A DNA stretch of 64,000 nucleotides from Apostichopus japonicus (Eukaryota; Echinodermata; Holothuroidea; Aspidochirotida; Stichopodidae): NCBI RefSeq assembly GCF_037975245.1, contig NC_092573.1:9708001-9772000 (forward strand), in the 5' to 3' direction. Below are positions 1,162 through 64,000 of this stretch, piece by piece. Below the pieces are notes generated by a model. That model saw nothing but the letters and a program-made list of their open reading frames with translations, did not search any database and had not been told where the DNA came from. Within the stretch, counting starts at the first letter, position 1. Every line of letters starts with the position of its first letter. The position numbers and the translations under genes are program-made.

Positions 1162-1365
1162 GAAACTCGTAATGAGTTGGAAAATCAAGAACAGTGAAAA
1201 ACAGGCGTTTGTCACCTGTATCGAACAATACTAGTTCTGTTTTCGTGACATATTTGCCTTACTCTAGAGATCAAACATAATTCTAAACAACTCGAAATCA
1301 TTTGTGATTCCTAAAGCCGGATCTCGAAAGAGATACTTTGAACAGACTTTTGTTAATGAAATGGA
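1159..1365 (-). mobile_element. tRNA-derived SINE-A body, distal part (split by a LINE)
   Basis: Read on the minus strand, this stretch matches 18660-18880 closely (for example TCTAGAGATCAAACAT and CCGGATCTCGAAAGAGATAC). It is the body of the tRNA-headed repeat family called SINE-A here. Its last 15 bp (1351-1365) are duplicated at 2890-2904, on the other side of the LINE insertion, so this and 2905-3103 were once continuous. Confidence 0.75.
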
Positions 1366-2889
1366 TTATACTCCTAAATTATCCCGCCTTAAGAGTAAGT
1401 TAAATATGTGGTCCACTCGTGATTTGACCCCTATTGGTAGGATAACAATTGTTAAAACCTTAGGTCTTTCTCAGCTTGTTTTTCTTTTTCAAGTTCTTCC
1501 GGACCCCCCATTGAACTTTCTGAAGAATCTTGAGACTGTCCTCTTTCGTTTTATTTGGGCTGGAAGACCAGATAAGATTAAGCGTAATACTTTAATTGGT
1601 TCAATCGAACATGGCGGCTTAAAAGCAATTCACATTGGTTCCTTTATCCAGGATCTCAAATGTACTTGGGTTAAAAGGTACATTAATGATATAACGGCTT
1701 ATTGGAAGTTATTTTTTGATTTGCATTTAAAGAAGTATGGGAAAGAATTGTTATTTAAATGTAATTATCAAACTAGTGATGTTTTAATTGATAACAAATT
1801 TATAAGAGATGTCTGTCGAGCTTGGTCATGCTATTTCTTTAAAAAAACCGTGGCCAATTTTCGAAATGAAATTATTTGGAATAATTCAGCTTTGAAAATT
1901 GATAGAAAGATTTTCTTCTATAAATTCATGTATGAAAAGGGCGTCATTAAGGTGGGAGATTTGTTGGACGGCAACGGTTATTTATTATCTTTAGCTAGTT
2001 TTAAACAGAAATTTTCCTTAGATTTTTTTCCATTTACTCTTTTTTATGGTATTGTTTCTGCAATACCTAGTCATTGGAAAGAGAATATGGGCGCATTTAA
2101 CAATGACGAAATTGAGAATAATGGGTTAGACATTCTTAATCAAATACCGCCTATCTCTCGTCAAATTTATAGGTCATTGATCAAGTCTATAATTGTTCCC
2201 CCAATAGCTATTAACAAATGGGGAAATAATTTTGAGTTTATTGATTTGCAGTGGCAGACTATTTTCCGTATTCCTTTCATTTCTTGTAGAGAAAGCAAGA
2301 TTTGTTATTTTCAATACCGTTTTCTCCACCGTATACTGGGAACTAATCATTTACTCTATCGCATGAATATCAAGGAAAATGCAAGCTGTACGTTCTGTGG
2401 GAGACATGATGAAACGATAGAGCACCTTTTTTGGGATTGTCAAATTACTTCAAACTTTATATTAGATATTGAGCGACATGTGCTAGGTATGCAATTTATT
2501 TTCATTAAGAGTGACATTTTCTTTGGCTACAAGCTACTTCTGAGTCATCCGTATAATTTTCTCATCTTTCATTTGAAGTACTATATCTTTAGTCAAAAGA
2601 TGAATAATGAAGTGCCAATATTAAATGAATTTATCAATAAATTTAAGTTCATCCTTCAAGTAGAAAAAAGTTTGGATAGATCTCATATACGGAGCAAAAT
2701 AACTTATGATAGCCTTTGTACTGCGTTCAGAAATTGTCATTTTATTCATGAACTCAGTTAAACGTTTAAATTACTATGTATAAGCGATAGTTATGATACT
2801 ATTAGATACGTGAAAAAAAATGCATTCAATATTCATATGTACACATGCATGTATTTACAGAATAAAGGAGATGGAAAAAAAAAAAAAAA
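1366..2889 (+). mobile_element. 5'-truncated non-LTR retrotransposon (LINE) with poly(A) tail
   Basis: Insertion of about 1.5 kb ending in a pure poly(A) tail (2876-2889). It is flanked by the perfect 15-bp duplication TGTTAATGAAATGGA at 1351-1365 and 2890-2904, the signature of target-primed reverse transcription. Only the region downstream of the reverse-transcriptase catalytic core is present, so the copy was truncated at its 5' end on insertion. It lies in an older SINE-A copy. Confidence 0.9.
1367..2761 (+). pseudogene. LINE ORF2 C-terminal fragment, uninterrupted
   Basis: About 464 codons remain open to a TAA stop. The start resembles the thumb/connection segment that follows the RT domain in L1/Tx1-like LINE proteins: W-x-x-R-x-L-x-x-x-G-R-I-x-I-x-K, then F-I-W-x-G-R near residue 60 and K-I-K-R-N-T-L-I with a G-G-L-K. 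Near the middle of the last third is a zinc-ribbon-like C-x2-C-x7-E-H-L-F-W-D-C. The YADD catalytic motif and the endonuclease are missing, so this fragment cannot be autonomous. The open frame continues upstream to an ATG at 1304, but the first 20 residues come from the host SINE, not the LINE. The lack of stops suggests a recent insertion. Clade assignment (L1/Tx1-like) is from recalled similarity only. Confidence 0.8.
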
Positions 2890-3103: not shown

Positions 3104-3895
<792 letters not shown>

Positions 3896-16744: not shown

Positions 16745-18470
16745 GATTGCTGCTCAAAGTGTGTGTATATATATATAAATATAAATATATATATATATAT
16801 GAATTGTAGAATATGAGACTTCAACAAGCACAGTAAGAAATTATACAAAGCTGTATGTTCCAATATTTCGCCGGTTAAGGCTTTATCAAGGAATGAGATG
16901 CAAACTACCGACTCCGTGTATATAAGTAAAAACTTTACAATCAATTCCCCTGAGCTGAAACGCACCAGCGAACAAACTGTATTCGGAGCGCACAGACGGA
17001 CTGACAAGAGGCGAAAAGCTTAAATATCCAATTGACGTCCAGCACAGCCATTCATTAAGTTATTACTGGCTTTAATGGTAAGGGCTTCGATTATTTTTCT
17101 TTTACTGGTATTGGGTAAGTTGCGATGTAGGATTTGCCAATTGATGTTTTCTCCAGATTTCGGATTTATATTGTGAGTTTGTAAATGAGTGTATATGGTC
17201 TGTTTAGTCATACGTAGATGTTCTTTTATTCTCGTTCCAATGGTGCATCCCGTTTTGCCGATGTACATAGACGAGCAAAGATTGCATTTAATCTTGTAGA
17301 CACAGTTTTTTGCGAAACAGTTATTCTTCTTTACAGCCATTTTGCAAGTGTCACAGTTGGGTGGGAAACCCTGTTTGTCACGTGGCGCGGAAAACAAACT
17401 CGCTGATGGGTTTCCTGTCATGAAGTGTGTTCTCAGATTTGTAATGCCCGATCTGCTGATTGTTGCCAGGGTCTGCCGTTTGATGTTCTCGTTCACAAAT
17501 GGTACTTTGAGGTAAATTCTTTGATCTTCCGATGGTCTAGTAGGGATGTTTATTGTGTGTTTCATGGTTGACTTCACGAATTTTTTAGGATATCCGTTTC
17601 TTATGAAGTTTGTTTTTACTTGTTTAAGAGATAGTTTTGTTGAGGGTTTGTCTGTGGACCTGGATATGGCTCTTCTTGTTTCTCCCGTCAAGATAGCCCG
17701 TTTGGCAGAGGTGGGACCATGGCTGTCCCAGTACAAAATGCAACCACTGTGTATAGGTTTGGTATATAGTTGTGTTGTGAATGAGTTGTTTGTACGATTT
17801 AGCGTTACAACTGTGTCCAGGAAGGGCAATCGGTCATCCACAGGCATTTCTAGGGTACATCTAAGAGCCGTGTTCAAGCTAGTGACGGATAGAATGTTAT
17901 CGCTGTTAATATCCGCCGATGTCCAAACAAGGAAAATGTCGTCGATGTAGCGTTTTAGCATGACGTTATTTCCAAATTGGTGACGGAGCTGGATGTCTGA
18001 CTGATTCATGTAGATGATGGCTAAACTAGGTGCTAAGTTGTTTCCCATGGCTAAACCATTATTTTGTGCATAGTCTAACGAGCGTTTGGCGTTGAGTATA
18101 GCAGTACCAGATTTTTCACATTAATTGATTATACGTGTGATGCCACATTTAAGCTCGTTGATCGCATGTTCCGGGACATTTTCTTTCTTCAATTGATCGA
18201 CTGCTGATTGTAAGCTAGCTCTAGCTGTTACACAGGCTCGCGGTAGAAACTTGGGATCAGCGTTGACATATGATGGTCCCTTGTTGAGTAGATTGACCAG
18301 GTTTGAGTCGAGTGGGTACGATGACAGGTTCTCAAATCCTTTGGGCGGTGGAAGCGTAGTTGTTTCGTTTATGTTGGCATTTAGTAATAGTTGTAGTTTC
18401 TTCTGTTTAATGTCCCGTAGTGAGTCTTTGAAAGTTGTTATTATTTTATCTTCACATAAAACATCCGCTC
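16745..18470 (-). mobile_element. Penelope-like retroelement, internally deleted and decayed
   Basis: The minus strand encodes an RT-plus-GIY-YIG protein typical of Penelope-like elements (see 17020-18400). The 3' flank (about 16745-17019) has CTTGATAAAGCC and CGAAATATTGG, like PLE tails, and runs into a TA tract. The 5' edge is at the TA tract starting at 18474. The element is not full length. Confidence 0.8.
17020..18400 (-). pseudogene. Penelope-like RT / GIY-YIG endonuclease ORF with internal stop and likely deletion
   Basis: The long open part (18048 to 17020) starts M-G-N-N-L-A-P, the RT motif of 'G-N-x-L-A-P' type, then has the catalytic Y-I-D-D-I-F near residue 35. Near the C-terminus is V-Y-K-I-K-C-N-L-C...Y-I-G-K-T-G...R-I-K-E-H-L, a GIY-YIG nuclease domain of the PLE kind with the preceding zinc-finger-like cysteines. 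The frame stays open upstream of 18048 to an in-frame TAA at about 18122-18124. Beyond it the same frame gives N-L-S-S-Y-P-L-D and L-N-K-G-P-S-Y-V, the N-terminal block of PLE proteins. Only about 60-90 residues separate that block from the G-N-x-L-A-P motif, far fewer than expected, so RT fingers/palm motifs 1-4 seem to be deleted. Not expected to be active. Confidence 0.8.
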
Positions 18471-24400: not shown

Positions 24401-25721
24401 TTGTCATATATATATGAGCTGTATGATTCATCGGATCATACTACAAAAGGTTATTCACGCAATAAGTATGTACAGTACCTCCGATACAGTAGGCGATCTG
24501 TAACACTGTCCAGCCACTGCCGAACAAATCTTGGAATAAGTGAGCTCCATAGAAAGGATGAAGCCTGGAATGTAAAAAGAAACCAATGAAATGTCTCAAT
24601 ACTGGTATATTACTACTATACTGTACATCTGGCGTTCTCAATTAATTTTCTACACGAGCTAGACAGAAACATTGACTGGAGCATGTGAAGAGACAGAGAG
24701 AGTTACCAAAATCTTATTATACTTTTAGATTGAGCATTGTGCAGGGTAAGCTGGTATTAAGGGCCCATATACAGTACCCTATTAGAGAAAGATTGTGTGT
24801 CCATCTATTTTCTGGGACAGATATGGATTTGAGGGCCCAGTAGGCTGCCTACTGAGAGGTTCTAGTATACGAGATATGGGATTATTCTTCATTACTAAAT
24901 GTAAAATTCAGAAACCAGCGAGGCCAATTAGTGGTCACTCACATTCAAGCTTACACAAGCATAGCACTGTCACCTTCACAAAGCAGTGTATAGGACATGA
25001 CCAATCGAAACACTTCTCAATGTCTGAGAATATTTTGGATGGTCAAAACTTTCTCAAGAGTATGGTTAACAGATATGTATGTATGCATGTATTTTAGATC
25101 CTCCTGTAATCAGGAACTTGCGAAGAAGCCTCATTGGCTTATCAAAGATGCAAGCTGACCAAAGTCAGTCTCTTAGATTCAAATTTAACATCCATGATTA
25201 TGAATTGTCAATTGTTAACAACTCTGTAACTGGACGACATACTGTACATTAATCTTGGGGTGACTCGAACTAACTGGGGATCTTGAAGTCTTTCCTCATA
25301 CATCAGGTTACTTACATGCACTTGTCACTTCCTTGTCACTTCCCTGTACTATTGTATGTGTGGTCTACAGCATAGTGCAAGGTTTTAATTCCAGCCATAT
25401 ATTTTGCTATATTATTGCAATAAACTGTGCATTGAAACGATATCCTGGTAGCTTCCTAGCTGTTACATAGATGTAATATTACATATACTTACAGCAGTTT
25501 AATATGTTTGTTTGAAACAGGCAAGGGCCACAGTTGAAAAAATTATCTTGAAAGTTTAAAAGAGTCCTGATAAATACAGTATGTAAGAACCTCACCTTCT
25601 CTCCATAAATAAACATCCATCGAATTATTCTTATATCGGAATCCTTGGATCCAACCAAGCAAATTATTGTACTGAGAAAGAAGCAGATGGAATAGATGAT
25701 CATCAGAGACAGGAAATCCAT
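21210..25721 (-). CDS. ZDHHC4: ZDHHC4-like palmitoyltransferase (5 exons, 345 aa)
   Basis: Integral-membrane protein S-acyltransferase: transfers palmitate from acyl-CoA through an acyl-cysteine intermediate onto cytosolic cysteines of target proteins; the human relative is mainly in the ER. Exons (minus, in order): 25721-25596, 24564-24479, 23753-23449, 22989-22745, 21485-21210; all have GT-AG borders and compatible phases. The total is 1,038 bp, 345 aa, nearly the human length as I recall it. The N-terminus MDFL starts a TM helix as in ZDHHC4. TNPG follows TM2/3 (the DPG-like motif). The cysteine-rich domain runs C-K-S-C...K-P-A-R-S-K-H-C...C-D-H-C-V-H-R-F then D-H-H-C (catalytic Cys about residue 186) and W-I-N-N-C-V-G. 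A TTxE motif (TTNE) follows the last TM. The C-terminus lacks the dilysine signal of the mammalian protein. Assignment to ZDHHC4 rather than a paralogue rests on length, N-terminus and the TNQTTNE tail. Confidence 0.92.
22745..22989 (-). CDS. ZDHHC4: ZDHHC4 exon 4: DHHC catalytic exon
   Basis: Encodes [12 protein letters not shown] with the catalytic cysteine, then [14 protein letters not shown] and the start of the next TM helix. The plus-strand open frame over the same bases is an antisense shadow. Confidence 0.95.
23449..23753 (-). CDS. ZDHHC4: ZDHHC4 exon 3
   Basis: Encodes two TM segments, the TNPG motif and the first half of the cysteine-rich domain up to KPARSKHC. Acceptor CATCGCAG, donor TGTG|GTGAGC (phase 1). 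Confidence 0.93.
23800..24345. repeat. Old ~330-bp partial duplication in ZDHHC4 intron 2
   Basis: Two segments recur in the same order: AATATTAGTAAACGTCCAAAATTTTG (about 23810, shortened here) and ATTAGTAAATGTCAACAATTTTG (about 24143), then a GTCCAGCTAACGAATAATGATAA-like block (about 24027) and a GTCTAGCTAACAAATGGTAAT-like block (about 24297). A CA-rich microsatellite (24180-24292) lies between. Confidence 0.5.
24479..24564 (-). CDS. ZDHHC4: ZDHHC4 exon 2
   Basis: 28 codons plus 2 nt, reading [15 protein letters not shown]. This frame, not the longer open frame seen over the same bases, keeps phase with exons 1 and 3 and resembles the human protein. Donor CGGAG|GTACTG. Confidence 0.8.
25079..25300 (-). 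mobile_element. SINE-B (tRNA-derived family), partial
   Basis: Minus-strand copy of the family typified at 31512-31803: a tail of TATGCATGTATTTTAGATCCTCCTG, then GCAGGAAC...GCGAAGAAGCCTCATTGGC, then the body with AACTGGACGACATAC. The tRNA head is decayed. It lies in ZDHHC4 intron 1. Confidence 0.8.
25596..25721 (-). CDS. ZDHHC4: ZDHHC4 exon 1
   Basis: 42 codons from ATG: first TM helix ([10 protein letters not shown]...) and start of the next segment. Donor GAGAAG|GTGAGG, phase 0. Confidence 0.9.
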
Positions 25722-27419: not shown

Positions 27420-27510
27420 ATGAGCAGAAAACAGACGCCTAGTGACTTTCTTAAACAAATCATTGGTCGCCCAGTTGTGGTCAAACTGAACTCGGGTGTT
27501 GATTATAGAG
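27420..27510 (+). CDS. LSM6: LSM6 exon 1
   Basis: ATG in good context (CCACCATGA). 30 codons plus one base, ending AGAG|GTGAGT. Confidence 0.96.
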
Positions 27511-30500
27511 GTGAGTATACACGTCTGAAGACTACACATAAGCAGGCCTCAAAGTTAGGGTTATTTACTGGCTAAATGCAAGTGGATATAACCGTTCACA
27601 AGTAGAATAAAAGACACAGGTCTACATTTTACTGTCAGAAGAGATTAAGAACGTTAACACATGATCAGTTGGTTGACAATCATCAGTCAAAGAATTATTA
27701 TGATTTCCAATTCTACAGTAACCTGAGGGAATGATGAAGCCCATATTAATGTTTATTATCAGCAAATAGTATCGGGCATAGGTTTGTACAGTAACATGAT
27801 GTGTGTTGTTATTCAGGAAAAATGCAAGTGAGAACTTTTGAGCCAGTATATTTTTTAAGTGCTTGCTCTTTTTTGGCAAGTGGCTAAAATATGACATTTT
27901 AGGCTTTAATAGTATACATGTCTTCCAGTTACAGAGTGGTTGACTGTTGACAATTCATAATCATGGATGTAAGAGACTGATTTATGAATGTAAGAGACTG
28001 ACTTCGGTCGGCTTGCGACCTTGATAAGCCAATGAGGCTTCATGCAAGTTCCTGGTTGCAGGAGAATCTAAAATACATACATAAAATATATACAGTACAT
28101 ATAGTGTGGAAAACTATGGATAGTACCTGGATGTCATAGTTGACTTGCATGGAATAAACAAAACCGTAACTCTGAGCAGCAGGAAAGTGCAGTGGTCAAT
28201 GGATAGTGTAAGAATATTCAAGTTTGGGTTTCCCATCAATAACTCGCACATTCTTTGCTAAACTTTATGGAGGAACTAGATGCATTGTGATAGTTAAAGC
28301 AAATTGCCACTAAGCACTGGGAGAGGTTACAATGTACAGCAAGTAGAATATGGTACAGTAGGTGTGTGTGCTAACTTGGGTTATTCTACTAACCAGAGTT
28401 TGAACCTTCAATACCAAATGTCAGGCCTCTTGTGTGGAGGTCTTCCCCCAGTCAGTAACCTCAATGCTGCTTCATTTTTCTTTCCTTTTTTATCACCTCA
28501 CCTGATTAAGTTGAGATTGTCGGTCAGTATGTTACCTAATGTGCTTTTACCCCTAGATATCTATGAATTTGCAGTAGCTGCATGCCATCAGAACATGATT
28601 TTGTTTCACTTAAGCATAAAAAAAAGATTTTGACTTGTAAGAACAGAAGACTTGTAAGAAGACTTGTAAGAAGACTTGTAAGAACAGAATTGTAATCAGT
28701 AACTTATGCTATACCAACTGATACTATGTAACTTTTGTCGGAAGACAAACTACCCTTTAAATTTACCGTATAACCAATGATACTGTAGCTTGCCAGCTCC
28801 AGTCGATGCAATCCAGAAAACGGCAGGGCAAGGTATATCCAAAGATCGTCATTATCATACAAGTAAACGAACAATTGAGAACTGATCCAGTTGTTTGAGT
28901 GATCAGTGTGATTGTATATACTGTATTGCTTATTCTTCCTTCAGTAATGTCATTAACCAGCCTGTTCCTGTTTTTCATTAGGTGTTCTTGCTTGTCTAGA
29001 TGGCTACATGAATATTGCTCTGGAACAGACAGAAGAGTATGTGAACGGACAGCTGAAGAATAAGTATGGCGATGCATTCATCAGAGGCAATAATGGTGAG
29101 TATTGTGTAATATTAACAGTATGGTGATGCATTCATCAGAGGCAATAATGGTGAGTATTGTGTAATATTAACAGTATGGTGATGCATTCATCAGAGGCAA
29201 TAATGGTGAGTATTGTGTAATATTAACAGTATGGTGATGCATTCATCAGAGGCAATAATGGTGAGTATTGTGTAATATTAACAGTATGGTGATGCATTCA
29301 TCAGAGGCAATAATGGTGAGTATTGTGTAATATTAACAGTATGGTGATGCATTCATCAGAGGCAATACTGGTGAGTATTGTGTAATATTAACAGTATTGT
29401 GATGCATTCATCAGAGGCAATACTGGTGAGTATTGTGTAATATTAACAGTATGGTGATGCATTCATCAGAGGCAATACTGGTGAGTATTGTGTAATATTA
29501 ACAGTATGGCGATACATTCATCAGAGGCAATAATGGTGAGTTTGTGTAACATTAACAGTATGGTGATGCGTTCATCAGAGGCAATAATGGTGAGTATTGT
29601 GTAATATTAACAGTGTGGTGATGCATTCATCAGAGGCAATAACAGTGAGTATTGTGTAACATTAACAGTATGGTGATGCATTCATCAGAGGCAATAATGG
29701 TGAGTATTGTGTAATATTAACAGTATGGTGATGCATTCATCAGAGGCAATAATGGTGAGTATTGTGTAATATTAACAGTATGGTGATGCATTCATCAGAG
29801 GCAATACTGGCAAGTATTGTGTAATATAACTTATAACCATACTGTTAATTTAATATTAACAGTATGGTTAATTAAGTTCATCAAAAGGTCAGTAATGGTG
29901 AGTATTAATTATGTAATTATATTAACATTATTAACAATGCATAGTTGTAAGTTCATCACAGTGAGAATAATGGCAGAGTATAATGGTTTATGGTATGAAT
30001 CTGGTTTTAGTATCTTGTAGCTATGAAACTGTCTTGTTATGGTATCAAACTCCCGATTGTTGTCTCATGGTTGATCAGAAATTATCTCTGAAATACTGTG
30101 CAGATTTGCAATGACCAAAGTATCGTAGAAAACTTGCTTCCATTCTATCACACAGGTAAAAGGTTTATACTGCTTTTATTAAAGTACGCACAAGCCTAAC
30201 CAAGGGCGGCGGAAGCACTTTTAATCTGGGGGGGCACCAACGTCGAAGGGCACTTTGCAGAAATTCGATTGGACTGATGCAGCCTGATATTTAGTACCCT
30301 TCATAACTCTTATTGTATTATCTTATTTGCGTATACACATCACTCCATCAACGCCACCCCCCCCCCCTTCAAGGAAACAATGCATACTAGCACTGCAGTA
30401 TCTAATGTGCAAATTGGGAAACAAGGAAAAAGACAAAATGAGGTGAAATCATTATAAAGTCCAAGTCCCTGCACACGCGATCGATACATGCATGAAAGCA

Positions 30501-31918
30501 AATGAAATATGTCCAAATACTGAAAGAAAAGTAATTTTCTATGTGTTTTTCAATGGTTAAACTGATATTATTATGATCATTATTATTGTAACGACTTTCC
30601 CAATAATTATAACCAATTTGGAAAGGTTGTAACACGGCAAATGATTGTATGTTATTGGCATGCGATGTAATAACCAACGCATGCCTATATGATATGCACA
30701 TTAAGATGTTGAATGCGCGCGTAGCGCGCGAAAAATTTTGGTAATATTTTTCGGGCAAGTCGTTACAGCCCCCCCCCCCCCAAATCAAATTGGGCTCCTA
30801 CGCCTGTGGTATTAAACATTTAAAACTTCCCGAAATATTTGATTCGACGTGGGTTTCGCTTTGTAAACTCTTTTTTTATTTAGAAATTTTTATGTAGAAA
30901 AAGGGCACATTTTTAATCTGAGGAAAAGTGGGGGGGCACGTGCCCCCTGTGCCCCCCCGGTTCCGCCGCCCTTGAGCCTAACCAATTTCACTTAGTAACG
31001 TCAAAGATACAGTCATTATGAACAACTTCTGTAAAGAGATAAATAGGATAGTGGCTCCCATTTAGTAGATGTCATGTTTTTTTAGTGTTCCTTCATATAT
31101 CCTAGAAAAGAAAGTCAAATAAATGACATCTTATAACCACTAGTGCCTGAGTTTGTAATGTCTCTCATTACCAATTACGTTGTTTACTAAGTACTCTTAA
31201 TTGTTTTTGCTAAAATAATTAGGTTTTTAACATTACCTAATATATGGTGCAGTAACAAGTTTGCTAACTGTCACCATGTAAATATTAAAGAAAGCACAAA
31301 GGGGAACTAAGAAATTTTTTAATTTCACCAAGGTGTTAAACGTGAACCTTGGTTACCGTATGACGCTTTAGGGGAAAAAAACGAACAGTGAAGTTTTATA
31401 TGTGAAGAAATATTCAATATTGTCTGTAATGTTCACCTCCAGTTGCTTATCTACTAACTCAGTATTAGTTGCCATTACAAACTGCCAGTTTTGCTATTGT
31501 AACTAATATCTTTGTATGTATGTATGGGTGTATGTATGCGTGTATGTGTGTATGTATGTATGTATGTATGTATTTAAGATCCTCCTGCAAGCAGGAACTC
31601 GCGAAGAAGCCATCATTGGCTTATCAAAGCCGCAAACTGATTGAAATCAGTCTCTTAGATTCATATTTAACGTCCATGATTATGAATTGTCAATTGTCAA
31701 CTACTCTGTGACTGGACGACATACATTAAACTTGGAGAGACTCAAACTCGGTACCTTATGATTGAAAGGCACCGGCGTTAACCACTGAGCTAACACTCCT
31801 CAACTATGTCTCCTACCAATATACTATTCAGTATTTTTCAAGTATTAAGCCCCTCTTTCTCTTTCTCTCTATGTCTCCTCCAGTTTTATACATCAGTACA
31901 CAGAAGCGAAGTTATTAA
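27420..31918 (+). CDS. LSM6: LSM6: U6 snRNA / mRNA-decay Sm-like protein (3 exons, 79 aa)
   Basis: Subunit of the heptameric LSM2-8 ring (nucleus; binds the U-rich 3' end of U6 snRNA) and the LSM1-7 ring (cytoplasm; promotes decapping and 5'-3' mRNA decay). Exons: 27420-27510, 28982-29095, 31884-31918; GT-AG borders with phases 1 and 1. The protein begins M-S-R-K-Q-T-P-S-D-F-L-K-Q-I-I-G-R-P-V. Sm1 is V-V-K-L-N-S-G-V-D-Y-R-G...D-G-Y-M-N. Sm2 is A-F-I-R-G-N-N-V-L-Y-I. The key RNA-contact positions D-x-x-M-N and R-G-N-N are intact. It is almost identical to human LSM6 as I recall it, one residue shorter at the N-terminus and ending K-R-S-Y. Oddity: the 3' end of exon 2 and its donor site are amplified into a minisatellite in intron 2. 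Confidence 0.97.
27940..28088 (+). mobile_element. SINE-B, 5'-truncated
   Basis: Plus-strand copy lacking the tRNA head: AATTCATAATCATGGATGTAAGAGACTG with that element partly repeated, then GACTTCGGTCGGCTTGCGACC, AGCCAATGAGGCTTC and the tail AGAATCTAAAATACATACATA. It lies in LSM6 intron 1. Confidence 0.8.
28632..28692. repeat. GACTTGTAAGAA tandem repeat
   Basis: Four copies of about 14 bp (GACTTGTAAGAA with or without CAGAA). Short local array in LSM6 intron 1. Confidence 0.85.
28982..29095 (+). CDS. LSM6: LSM6 exon 2
   Basis: Acceptor TTTTTCATTAG. Encodes V-L-A-C-L-D-G-Y-M-N...N-K-Y-G-D-A-F-I-R-G-N-N and ends AATG|GTGAGT, phase 1. Its last 30 nt are the coding half of the first unit of the downstream 55-bp repeat. 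Confidence 0.97.
29066..29834 (+). repeat. 55-bp minisatellite derived from LSM6 exon 2 end plus its 5' splice site
   Basis: Fourteen tandem units start at 29066, 29121, 29176, 29231, 29286, 29341, 29396, 29451, 29506, about 29560 (one base shorter before it), 29615, 29670, 29725 and 29780. Unit 1 is real LSM6 sequence: 30 nt of exon (ATGGCGATGCATTCATCAGA...) and 25 nt of intron starting GTGAGTATTGTG. Later units are 95% or more alike and nearly all keep the GGTGAGT donor; the last has GGCAAGT. A diverged further unit lies at about 29868-29912. Reading from exon 2 into the first repeat gives an in-frame TGA after about a dozen codons. Confidence 0.97.
30201..30974. mobile_element. hAT-like non-autonomous transposon, family 1, copy 1
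   Basis: Terminal inverted repeats CAAGGGCGGCGGAA...TTCCGCCGCCCTTG, flanked by the perfect 8-bp duplication AGCCTAAC (30193-30200 and 30975-30982). 774 bp, with G- or C-rich subterminal tracts and no transposase frame. The 8-bp duplication and the CA-GGG-like terminus fit the hAT superfamily. It lies in LSM6 intron 2. Confidence 0.92.
31512..31803 (-). mobile_element. SINE-B, full-length copy with tRNA-like head
   Basis: On the minus strand a tRNA-like head reads GTTAGCTCAGTGGTTAACGC (A box) and has a B-box-like GAGTTTGAGTC. It is followed by the body, a 3' segment GAGGATCTTAAATACATAC and a (CATA)n tail (31512-31575). It lies in LSM6 intron 2 between a hAT-like copy and exon 3. Confidence 0.85.
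31884..31918 (+). CDS. LSM6: LSM6 exon 3
   Basis: 35-bp terminal exon after TCTCCTCCAG. Encodes V-L-Y-I-S-T-Q-K-R-S-Y and TAA. Confidence 0.95.
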
Positions 31919-33710: not shown

Positions 33711-34543
33711 CAGTGGCGGAGCTAGGGGTATTGGTCAAGGGGGGCGAGAATGGTCTGTAGGGTCGCTTTCGACACTATCTAAGCGGAGCGCCACCACAGG
33801 TAAGCGCGAAGCGTACAGAAATGTTTTGAGTAAAGATACTTCCTAGATCGCCGGAAATGACCCTTTCCTGGCCTCGCTTATTTGCCGATAAACGAAGAAT
33901 AAATAGGGGTCATCGACAACAAAATGTGACAAATGTCAATAGGTAGATAAGAGCGCAATAGAAAAGTAAATAATCGCGAATAAGTAAAAAGTGGTAAAAA
34001 GCTGGAAAGAGCGTCAGCAGTCCATTTGAGTCCGTCAGGCAAGGGCGGCGGAAGCACTTTGAATCTGGGGGGGGGGGGGGGGCACCAACGTCGAAGGGCA
34101 CTTTGCAGAAATTCGATTGGACTGATATTTAGTACCCTTTTAACTCTTATTGTATTATCTTATTTGCGTATACACATCACTCCATCAACGCAGCCCCCCC
34201 CCCCCCCAAGGAAACAATGCATACTAGCACTGCAGTATCTAATGTGCAAATTGGGAAACAAGGAAAAAATTTTGGTAATATTTTTCGGGCAAGTCGTTAC
34301 AGCCCCCCAAATCAAATTGGGCTCCTACGATTGTGGTAGTAAACAAAACTTCCCGAAATATTTCATTCGACGTGGCTTTCGCTTTGGGTTTCGCTTTTTT
34401 ATTTAGAAATTTTATGTAGAAAAAGGGCACATTTTAATCTGAGGAAAAGTGGGGGGGCACGTGCCCCCCCGGTTCCGCCGCCCTTGCCGTCAGGGGGGGC
34501 ATTCGCCCCCCCCCCCCCTGACTGTATGGACGCTCCGCCACAG
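33711..34543. mobile_element. hAT-like non-autonomous transposon, family 2 (host of a nested insertion)
   Basis: Ends CAGTGGCGGAGC...GCTCCGCCACAG (one mismatch), flanked by the 8-bp duplication GTACCTAG / GTAACTAG (33703-33710, 34544-34551; one mismatch). A family-1 element (34040-34486) is inserted inside. No transposase frame is seen. Confidence 0.85.
34040..34486. mobile_element. hAT-like non-autonomous transposon, family 1, copy 2 (nested)
   Basis: 447 bp, CAAGGGCGGCGGAA...TTCCGCCGCCCTTG, with the perfect 8-bp duplication CCGTCAGG at 34032-34039 and 34487-34494. It is inserted in the family-2 element and is therefore younger than it. Its interior is shorter than in copies 1 and 3. Confidence 0.93.
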
Positions 34544-38365: not shown

Positions 38366-38435
38366 ATTCATAGACTATATTCAAAATAGGGCTAGGCTAC
38401 TTCCCCTCTCTTTTCACTACATTGTTATTCACACT

Positions 38436-39800
38436 TGTGGAGTGTTAACTCAGTGGTTAACGCCGGTGCCTTCCAATCATGAGGTCCCCGGTTCGAGTCA
38501 CTCTAAGATTAATGTATGTCGTCCAGTTACACAGTTGTTCACAATTCATTATCATGGACGTTAAATATGAATGTAAGAGACTCAGGGCCGGATTTACCAA
38601 TGGGCAACGTGGGCAGCTGCCCACGGGCCTCCACAACAAGGGGCCTCCACATACTTCATGAAAAAATATATATATCAGGGGAAATTTGAAGAAAAAAAAT
38701 TAAATGTAGGCTGACAAATATCATCAATCAAAATCATATTGCGCGCGGCTTACGCCACGCATACGCTTGAAGTCATATTCAATTTTAATTGTATCTCTTT
38801 GTGAATGGTAGAAACAGCTAAGTGGTTGTTTTCCCGTTATTGCAAATCACACGTCGGCAGACAAACATGATTGGCCTAATATCCAAAGTCATCAGTCTCA
38901 ACGTCTATTTTCTTTAGAACTAGGTTAATGGTTTTGGTTGAAACATTTCAGTACACCCTGACAGTGCGCCTGTCATCACCTCCCGCTAGGTTTCAGACAG
39001 GTATTGCTAATTGATTCTTTTCATGTGCAATGATGAAACAACTGTCTTCTCACCCCCTCTACACACACATACACAGGCCCGTGCGCGTCTGGGCAGTTGG
39101 CAATTGGCACATGTTCGTCATGAATCATGTTAGTCCAGTCAAGCTAAAAGCAAGTTTAGGCCCGGGTGTGAGTTTTTTCGGTTTTCCGGGATAATTAGCA
39201 TATGCAGGCCGATCAAATTCTTGGAAATGGGACAACACCCCCTTTCTCCAGAACCCAATTTCTAGATAACTTTAGTCATTTTTGACGTCGGATTATGAAA
39301 GAAAATGCTCCACATCCCCTTATAATCCAAGATTTTGCAAGGGTCAAGTCTCGAAAACTGCCTGGTCTGTAAATATACGTACTGTAAGTATTATATCCAT
39401 GTTTATATGATTGATCATGATTGCTCGTTCGTACTGAGAGTGAGAGAGGTTGTAGCAACCTTTTTACTTGTACTGAGAATTTTGCAGGCAAACAGGCCTA
39501 TTATGAAAATTCTTCAGAAATCACAAAATTTACTTCAGAAATCACAAAATACTGCACCATTTCGCATCCAAGAACCCTTAATTATTGGAAAAAATCCAAT
39601 ACCCCTCCCCTTACACACCTCCCCCAGGACGGCGATCACTGGAGGGGGGCCTCCACCACTGAAGGTTGCCCACGGGCCTCCACATGTCTAAATCCGGCTC
39701 TGAAGAGACTGACTTCCGGCTTCGGTCAGCTTGCGGTTTTGATAGCCAATGAGGCTTCTCCGCGATTTCCTGCTTGTAGGAGGATCTAAAATACATACAT
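38436..39800 (+). mobile_element. SINE-B, full-length copy split by a hAT-like element
   Basis: The tRNA-like head (TTAACTCAGTGGTTAACGCC; B box GGTTCGAGTCA at about 38502) and first half of the body are at 38436-38582. The second half (GACTTCCGGCTTCGGTCAGC...GAGGATCTAAAATACATAC) resumes at 39711. The break is exactly at the 8-bp duplication of the inserted element. Confidence 0.88.
38583..39702. mobile_element. hAT-like non-autonomous transposon, family 3
   Basis: 1,120 bp, ends CAGGGCCGGATTTA...TAAATCCGGCTCTG (one mismatch), with the perfect 8-bp duplication AAGAGACT at 38575-38582 and 39703-39710. The subterminal GGGCCTCCAC block also appears at both ends (one copy reads CACGGGCCTCCACA). 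No transposase frame. It is inserted in a SINE-B copy. Confidence 0.92.
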
Positions 39801-40635
39801 ATATATAAAACTCAAATTATACCTTAATAATATTTCTAGTCTTACTTTTCCAACCACCTCGTTTTTCGAGGTAAATACCTCACACCAACCACTTGAGATT
39901 CCCCGTGATGCATCTTTGCCCAAACCCTCAAAATCAAAATGAACAAAGGCGGTCGTCTTAGCGACAATGAACACTGTAGGCCCAAACCGACCCCCTCCGT
40001 TGACTAATCCATGTTTGCTCAACAATAGACTTGGGCTTCTGTTAGGTCCATGCTAGTCAATTCAACACACCTATTGCTTGAAGTGTTACGCTTGCGCCTC
40101 CTTTCGTCATCAAGGAAATTACCAGGATTATTCTTTAATTTTAACCATATTACCATCAATATTTCGATCGGAAATAGGTGTAATTGTGTTAACTGTTTAT
40201 CCAATAATCAGGTTATAAGTTTTTATCTTCGTTTGAAACGTTTTGCTGTAATTTATGGATGATTTTTAAACTTCACGAACGGTGTACCAGAATTTAGCCT
40301 TGTTTATCAGATCGATAAACAAAATGGATTCTAGTGCCGCTATTTGGTTATGTCGTGAGAAGGACATTGTATGATTTGTCCGAACTGATACTCAATTTTC
40401 TTGTCTTGTCTTAAAATTATAGGTTTCTAGACTTTTAAATACTTCTGTTTGACTAAGTACCAGTTTTGGTTAACACACATGTATATATATGATAGGTATA
40501 TGTTTACGGAAACACTCAACCGTTAATTTATCATGTGGACCATCTGCTAAGCATCATGCTTGTTTCAGTTGTTGCAAACATTCTTGAGAAGGATTATTTC
40601 CATCGGAAAAAAGTTGCAAGTGGGAAAATTACTGC
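39801..40635. promoter_or_regulatory. Upstream region of the sodium channel gene
   Basis: No repeat or gene recognised. A TTGTTTCAG acceptor-like site at about 40560-40568 suggests that the first coding exon may also be a second transcribed exon, preceded by an unseen 5' UTR exon. Confidence 0.35.
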
Positions 40636-63416
<22,781 letters not shown>

Positions 63417-64000
63417 GTGAGTATACCCACCCCCCCCCCCCACCCGTCTGAATAAACACATGTGTACTTTACCCGACTTTGCAGACATTATAAAAGAAAA
63501 TGTGACTATACAACTTGAACGTGTGTTTCTTTTCGGGGGTTCGACCTGGAGTCACGCAACCCCAGTACCTGAATCTTATAACTAGGTACTTAAACATTAA
63601 CTACGTCATTACTTTATGAGTGACTCAGTTAGGTTTAAAATAGTTACGAATCAATATAGTATTGCTAACAAATACGTTTTTTTTTTCATCGAGAAGATCA
63701 TTTCTTTTGAAATCCCGTCCATCTTCAGGTCGGACGAGAGGGTGGGATGGGACTTTAGCCTCGGGGCCCATGAAAAGTGGAGTTTGCACGGGAAAATATG
63801 GGATAGATATTAGTGTTTACTCAGTTAAATTATGGACTTAAAGAAACATGCATGTGCAAAAAGGGACCCGGTGACATTACTTTCCACGGGGCCCGGCCTG
63901 TCGCTCTGCGCCTCTGTATATGCCGCAATCAAGAATCCAACCATTGCAATTATGAGTAGACGCCCTTTCTCATGGTTTTGCAACGTATACACTGTGAACT
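63417..64000. other. NaV intron 22 (continues past the window)
   Basis: No exon recognised. It starts with a C-rich run (63430-63442). The gene's remaining exons lie to the right. Confidence 0.6.

Follow-up and report, generated by a model that had tools for sequence, protein, structure and literature searches.

How does a gene continue to make its protein when one of its 5' splice sites ('donors') has been copied many times over in the same transcript, and what, if anything, do the extra copies do? The question is raised by LSM6 of the holothurian Apostichopus japonicus, where a stretch of 64,000 nucleotides (nt) of contig NC_092573.1 (assembly GCF_037975245.1, positions 9,708,001 to 9,772,000, forward strand; 'the window' hereafter, with all coordinates numbered from its first letter) carries a tandem array laid across the boundary between exon 2 and intron 2. 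An earlier note on this DNA had drawn attention to the array, and had suggested that it might form a regulatory switch or a series of short pseudo-exons. The answer favoured here, which rests on the anatomy of the array and on the human ABCA7 gene, is that the array is probably a nearly neutral minisatellite of an exon-intron boundary, in which the first donor is mostly used, with some leakage to the second.

LSM6 lies complete on the forward strand in three coding exons, as determined by tblastn and by reading of the sequence. The coding part of exon 1 (27420..27510) opens with an ATG at 27420 and is followed by a GTGAGT donor at 27511; exon 2 (28982..29095) spans 114 nt; and the coding part of exon 3 (31884..31918) follows a pyrimidine-rich acceptor at 31883. 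The spliced product of 79 residues has as its best match the LSm6 chain of the PDB (E = 1.7e-47), to which its residues 3-77 are identical (entry 3jcr, 75 aligned residues), and it also matches the Pfam LSM family (E = 2.6e-21), so that the gene is indeed LSM6, as had been claimed. Because it is complete, and identical to PDB LSm6 over those 75 residues, LSM6 looks functional despite the array. The names in the list of protein matches place it among the U6-associated LSm proteins. Among the best 120 of 2065 protein matches to exon 2 read through its donor (P0128-P0247), 112 contain RGNNG and 8 contain RGNNV; the exon 2/intron 2 position, on this hint, may be common to other organisms, with the limit that the query's own ending (NNGEY) favours such matches.

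The array itself occupies 29065..29833 on the forward strand and consists of 14 units of 55 nt (54 nt in unit 9), in agreement with the earlier description of a 55-base-pair (bp) unit repeated some 14 times across the boundary. Tandem Repeats Finder reports it at 29063-29827, with a period of 55, 13.9 copies, 96% matches and a score of 1411, and the head-to-tail arrangement falls within the usual range for a minisatellite (units of ~10-100 bp). Self-matching at a lag of 55 reaches 0.90, as against at most 0.35 in 200 single-base shuffles (lags 20-199). Each unit joins 31 nt of exon 2 to 24 nt of intron 2, the repeat starting 31 nt upstream of the exon 2 donor, such that the last 31 nt of the exon form the exonic part of unit 1. 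This division is ambiguous by 2 nt, since the exon flank and the junction of the units have an AG in common; the split used here is 31 + 24, while that of the earlier note was 30 + 25. The 31 exonic nt encode the region YGDAFIRGNN, which we take to be the Sm2 motif. No open frame runs through the array, the longest stop-free run in the six frames of 29065-29833 being 46 codons. An origin of the unit from a dispersed repeat was also considered and is ruled out within the 64 kb, as no 14-mer of the unit has an exact copy elsewhere in the window on either strand.

When all 14 units were examined, six of them (2-5, 12 and 13) proved to be identical and to represent the consensus, while the others carry a small number of differences. 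One change just upstream of the donor is common to units 6, 7, 8 and 14; private changes are found in units 7, 9, 10 and 11; one change is common to units 9 and 11; and unit 9 has lost a single nt. In unit 14 the donor hexamer reads GCAAGT, not GTGAGT, and the last bases of the unit are degenerate. The real exon (unit 1) differs from the consensus at one synonymous position, where it has a C that recurs only in unit 9, the other 12 of the 14 units having T. This pattern fits an array that was seeded from the exon sequence and in which the T variant spread afterwards.

Beyond unit 14 the repeat does not simply stop. At its 3' edge (29834..29870, forward strand) stands an inverted repeat, perfect over 16 bp and with a loop of 5 nt, whose arms consist of the unit-junction sequence ATTAACAGTATGGT. 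There follows a diverged 15th copy (29863..29937, forward strand; aligned part 29877-29931), with an intact ATG/GTGAGT at 29898, whose score is reached by none of 500 Markov-randomised sequences and by none of 655 windows of LSM6 intron. A 16th copy is weakly traceable at about 29952..29981 on the same strand, its score being equalled in 15 of 500 randomised sequences and in 0 of 656 intron windows. Judged from the identical units and this decayed 3' edge, the array is a homogenised core with a decaying margin. Farther along intron 2, at 30201-30974, lies a separate insertion that resembles a mobile element, with 14-bp terminal inverted repeats CAAGGGCGGCGGAA; pieces related to it are present at 34040-34486, 51541-51807 and 52102-52191.

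Unit 1 holds the true exon 2 donor (29096..29101, forward strand, ATG/GTGAGT), and the hexamer GTGAGT is intact in 13 of the 14 units, making this a donor-bearing tandem repeat; the longer GGTGAGT, which had been noted in almost every unit, is present in 12 of 14 (unit 11 has AGTGAGT, and unit 14 has GGCAAGT, with no GT at the donor position). Scored with an approximate human donor weight matrix, units 1-10, 12 and 13 lie between 10.14 and 10.30, the diverged copy at 10.14 and unit 11 at 6.80. Because these scores are near-equal, the first donor is no stronger than the rest. RNA structure was considered as a discriminator as well: one consensus hairpin (-5.7 kcal/mol) would pair the donor over 8 bp with ATTCATCA in the same unit, but both pairing stretches are retained in 11 of the 14 units, and structure was rejected as the feature that sets the first donor apart. 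What distinguishes that donor is its context, as the end of a 114-nt exon; in addition, GA-rich motifs of the enhancer type (from a list of nine) are present in the unique portion of exon 2 but absent from both halves of the unit. We infer that exon context decides donor choice.

Whether selection keeps the donors was judged from the variants among the units. In a count that excludes the final 7 positions of unit 14, and that rests on few variants in units of common history, 5 of 12 distinct variants fall within the 9 donor positions of the 55, compared with 2 expected (p = 0.03, towards an excess); when the two adjacent double changes are counted once each, 3 of 10 variants do so (p = 0.22). 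The distribution of variants among the units thus gives no sign that the donors are under selective protection.

The consequences of donor choice can be read by conceptual splicing of each of the 15 possible donors (those of the 14 units and of the diverged copy) to exon 3. Only the first yields LSM6, as the earlier note had required of it; the other 14 all yield one and the same chain of 78 residues, in which GEYCVILTVW takes the place of the final eleven residues (VLYISTQKRSY) and which presumably lacks the last Sm strand. The claim that any later donor adds a multiple of 55 nt and soon meets a TGA stands as regards the stop, which is always the one TGA at the start of unit 2, and needs amendment as regards the length, which is 55n as far as unit 9 but 55n-1 for units 10-14. 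Exons closing at later donors would measure 169 to 916 nt. The stop would lie 23 nt upstream of the exon 2/exon 3 junction with the second donor, 78 nt with the third and at least 133 nt with those that follow. Under the usual 50-55-nt rule for nonsense-mediated decay (NMD), the second-donor product would escape NMD while the others would not, on the assumption of an intron-free 3' untranslated region. The read-through tail is absent from the best 120 of 2065 and the best 120 of 3967 protein matches, a weak negative given that contigs from short reads tend to break at repeats; among the former 120, EYCV, CVILT and a second FIRGN each occur in none, and NNGEY occurs in 2, which diverge thereafter.

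Taken with the ABCA7 example, this anatomy suggests a likely course of events. A segment spanning the junction of exon 2 with intron 2 would have been duplicated in tandem, and the duplicate then amplified and homogenised into a minisatellite through unequal exchange or slippage, with the extra copies carried as intronic passengers. The first donor would mostly be used because it closes the normal 114-nt exon beside purine-rich exon sequence; the second donor would be expected to take some leakage and those beyond it little, to judge from ABCA7. The products of such leakage would have an altered C-terminus, those from donor 3 onward should be targets of NMD, and the net effect on LSM6 would be small. 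That distinct variants are no rarer in the donor positions than elsewhere in the unit supports this picture. So does ABCA7, in which retention of one unit, through use of the next unit's donor, amounts to 2 +/- 1% and does not depend on array length (PMC5954066).

Several observations pull the other way. Local folding leaves the first donor 0.10 unpaired, which makes it less accessible than 10 of the 14 others (the sites range from 0.00 to 0.66). The ABCA7 figure of 2 +/- 1% is a steady-state value, and transcripts with premature stops rose substantially under cycloheximide (PMC5954066). Because NMD hides part of the product, the 2% is a lower bound, and true use of the second donor in ABCA7 exceeds it. 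With longer ABCA7 arrays the following exon is also skipped more often and expression is lower (PMC5954066), so that the 'small effect' supposed for LSM6 may be wrong; in LSM6, the next coding exon after the array is the last one. Finally, the splicing factor SRSF1 favours intron-proximal donors (in the LSM6 array, those of later units), while hnRNP A1 favours the distal donor (PMC5585400).

The behaviour of ABCA7 under cycloheximide and the preference of SRSF1 would also suit a gene with substantial leakage, in which equal donors divide the available U1, a large share of LSM6 precursor messenger RNA is lost to NMD or to truncated protein, and the array is either costly or sets the dose. On the approximate matrix, 12 of the 14 units equal the first donor (10.14-10.30), and simple arithmetic shows that a blind choice among 13 GTGAGT sites would leave only about 1 transcript in 13 productive. 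Against such losses stand the low retention in ABCA7, which does not grow with the array, and the length of the exons that later donors would close: exon definition disfavours long exons, and thus the longer of these. LSM6 is, moreover, generally essential, which also counts against leakage on this scale, and we regard it as rather unlikely. A regulated switch, in which the choice between the first and the other donors is tuned by splicing capacity and LSM6 levels feed back upon themselves, draws some appeal from the membership of LSM6 in the U6-associated group, and from the single premature stop shared by all 14 later donors read, which recalls a poison cassette. Because the donors are no better conserved than the remainder of the unit, a switch that depends upon them is disfavoured, and the absence of the read-through tail from the two sets of 120 matches adds a weak argument to the same effect; the suggestion is left without support and appears highly improbable. 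More improbable again is its elaboration into a self-limiting 'poison ladder' tuned by copy number, in which changes in the supply of U1 or of the U6 small nuclear ribonucleoprotein would shift donor choice and with it the yield of LSM6, and array length would set LSM6 dose in natural populations.

Two further readings concern the array as such. That it is an artefact of assembly, the real locus holding one or a few copies, is very unlikely: private variants and a 1-nt deletion in some units, together with a margin that grades through an inverted repeat to a diverged copy, are not what the joining of identical ends would produce, although the number of copies could be inexact. That the units serve as 31-nt pseudo-exons joined to one another might be thought plausible from their structure, with GTGAGT in 13 of 14 units and a TTAACAG that ends 13 of them (though not all 14, as had been stated). 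Their acceptors are poor in comparison with real ones: the 13 are 50% pyrimidine from -20 to -5, with a longest run of 2-3, whereas the two true acceptors reach 81% and 88% (pyrimidine content being no proof by itself, as 7 other AGs in 28901-31890 also reach 75%). Neighbouring pseudo-exons would also lie only 23-24 nt apart, which is too short for an animal intron, and of all the readings considered this is the one to which we attach the least belief. The nearly neutral minisatellite remains the preferred explanation.

The remainder of the window holds several further features. A dispersed repeat at 31551-31830 has copies at 25074-25271, 27918-28094, 38435-38582 and 39726-39805 (81-89% identical), and a TATT microsatellite at 3105-3894 contains about 198 copies (99% match). 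At 43637-43713, on the reverse strand, some 45 nt of the 5' end of U2 small nuclear RNA are nearly intact, most of the model being missing thereafter; this is probably a truncated U2 pseudogene. Retroelement remains at 1304-2761 (forward) and 17020-18048 (reverse) comprise a zf-RVT match and, separately, a frame whose weak matches to RVT_1 and GIY-YIG both fall short of the Pfam cut-offs, a combination that we take to be that of Penelope-like elements. Exons of an ion channel extend over 50612-63455 on the forward strand (three tested frames match Ion_trans, one of these short of the cut-off), and Pfam also identifies an exon of an amiloride-sensitive sodium channel in the window; among its 7 matches are one at 99% (P0121), taken to come from an assembly of public reads, and one at 54% in Holothuria leucospilota.

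For the study of splicing, the locus may provide a natural array for donor competition: 13 GTGAGT donors in 14 units, and one more in the diverged copy, are spaced at steps of about 55 nt along one transcript. The dependence of donor choice on position would be measurable here with sequence held nearly constant, and because each leak product would differ in length, one complementary DNA experiment could give the whole donor-choice curve. LSM6 also illustrates how an exon-intron boundary can turn into a minisatellite within a conserved gene while the reading frame remains unbroken.

Donor-bearing repeats have precedents, one of them in human IFI6 (6-16/G1P3), whose unit is reportedly shorter than the 55 bp of LSM6. 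The IFI6 minisatellite offers multiple donors, two downstream units being used as such (Turri et al. 1995, via a citing paper); as described there, these units give variants said to encode isoforms, whereas the 14 later donors of LSM6 all give one altered product. Another parallel is the variable number tandem repeat of human ABCA7 intron 18, a 25-bp unit that begins at the exon 18 donor and ranges from 12 to about 427 units between people (PMC5954066, 2018). There too the repeat starts at an exon's donor, so that its units can carry donor copies; use of the next unit's donor, at a low level, leads to a frameshift and a premature stop, skipping of the following exon rises with array length, and the alternative forms together exceed the canonical one in some brain samples (PMC5954066). 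The ABCA7 unit runs from the GT within a C-rich intron region, in contrast to the LSM6 unit, with its 31 nt of coding exon. Tandem duplication has also been linked to intron gain, in which splice signals are multiplied, with a potato case that crosses an exon-intron boundary and arrays of a 24-bp duplicate in fission yeast genes (PMC4974935). Intron gain by AGGT duplication was rejected for LSM6: AGGT is absent from the unit and from across the unit junction, the unit acceptors are poor, and there is no sign of a new intron. The LSM6 array is not unique, donor-bearing tandem repeats being already known in ABCA7 and IFI6; what is particular to it is the coding exon sequence carried in each unit, and a host gene that belongs to the splicing machinery itself.
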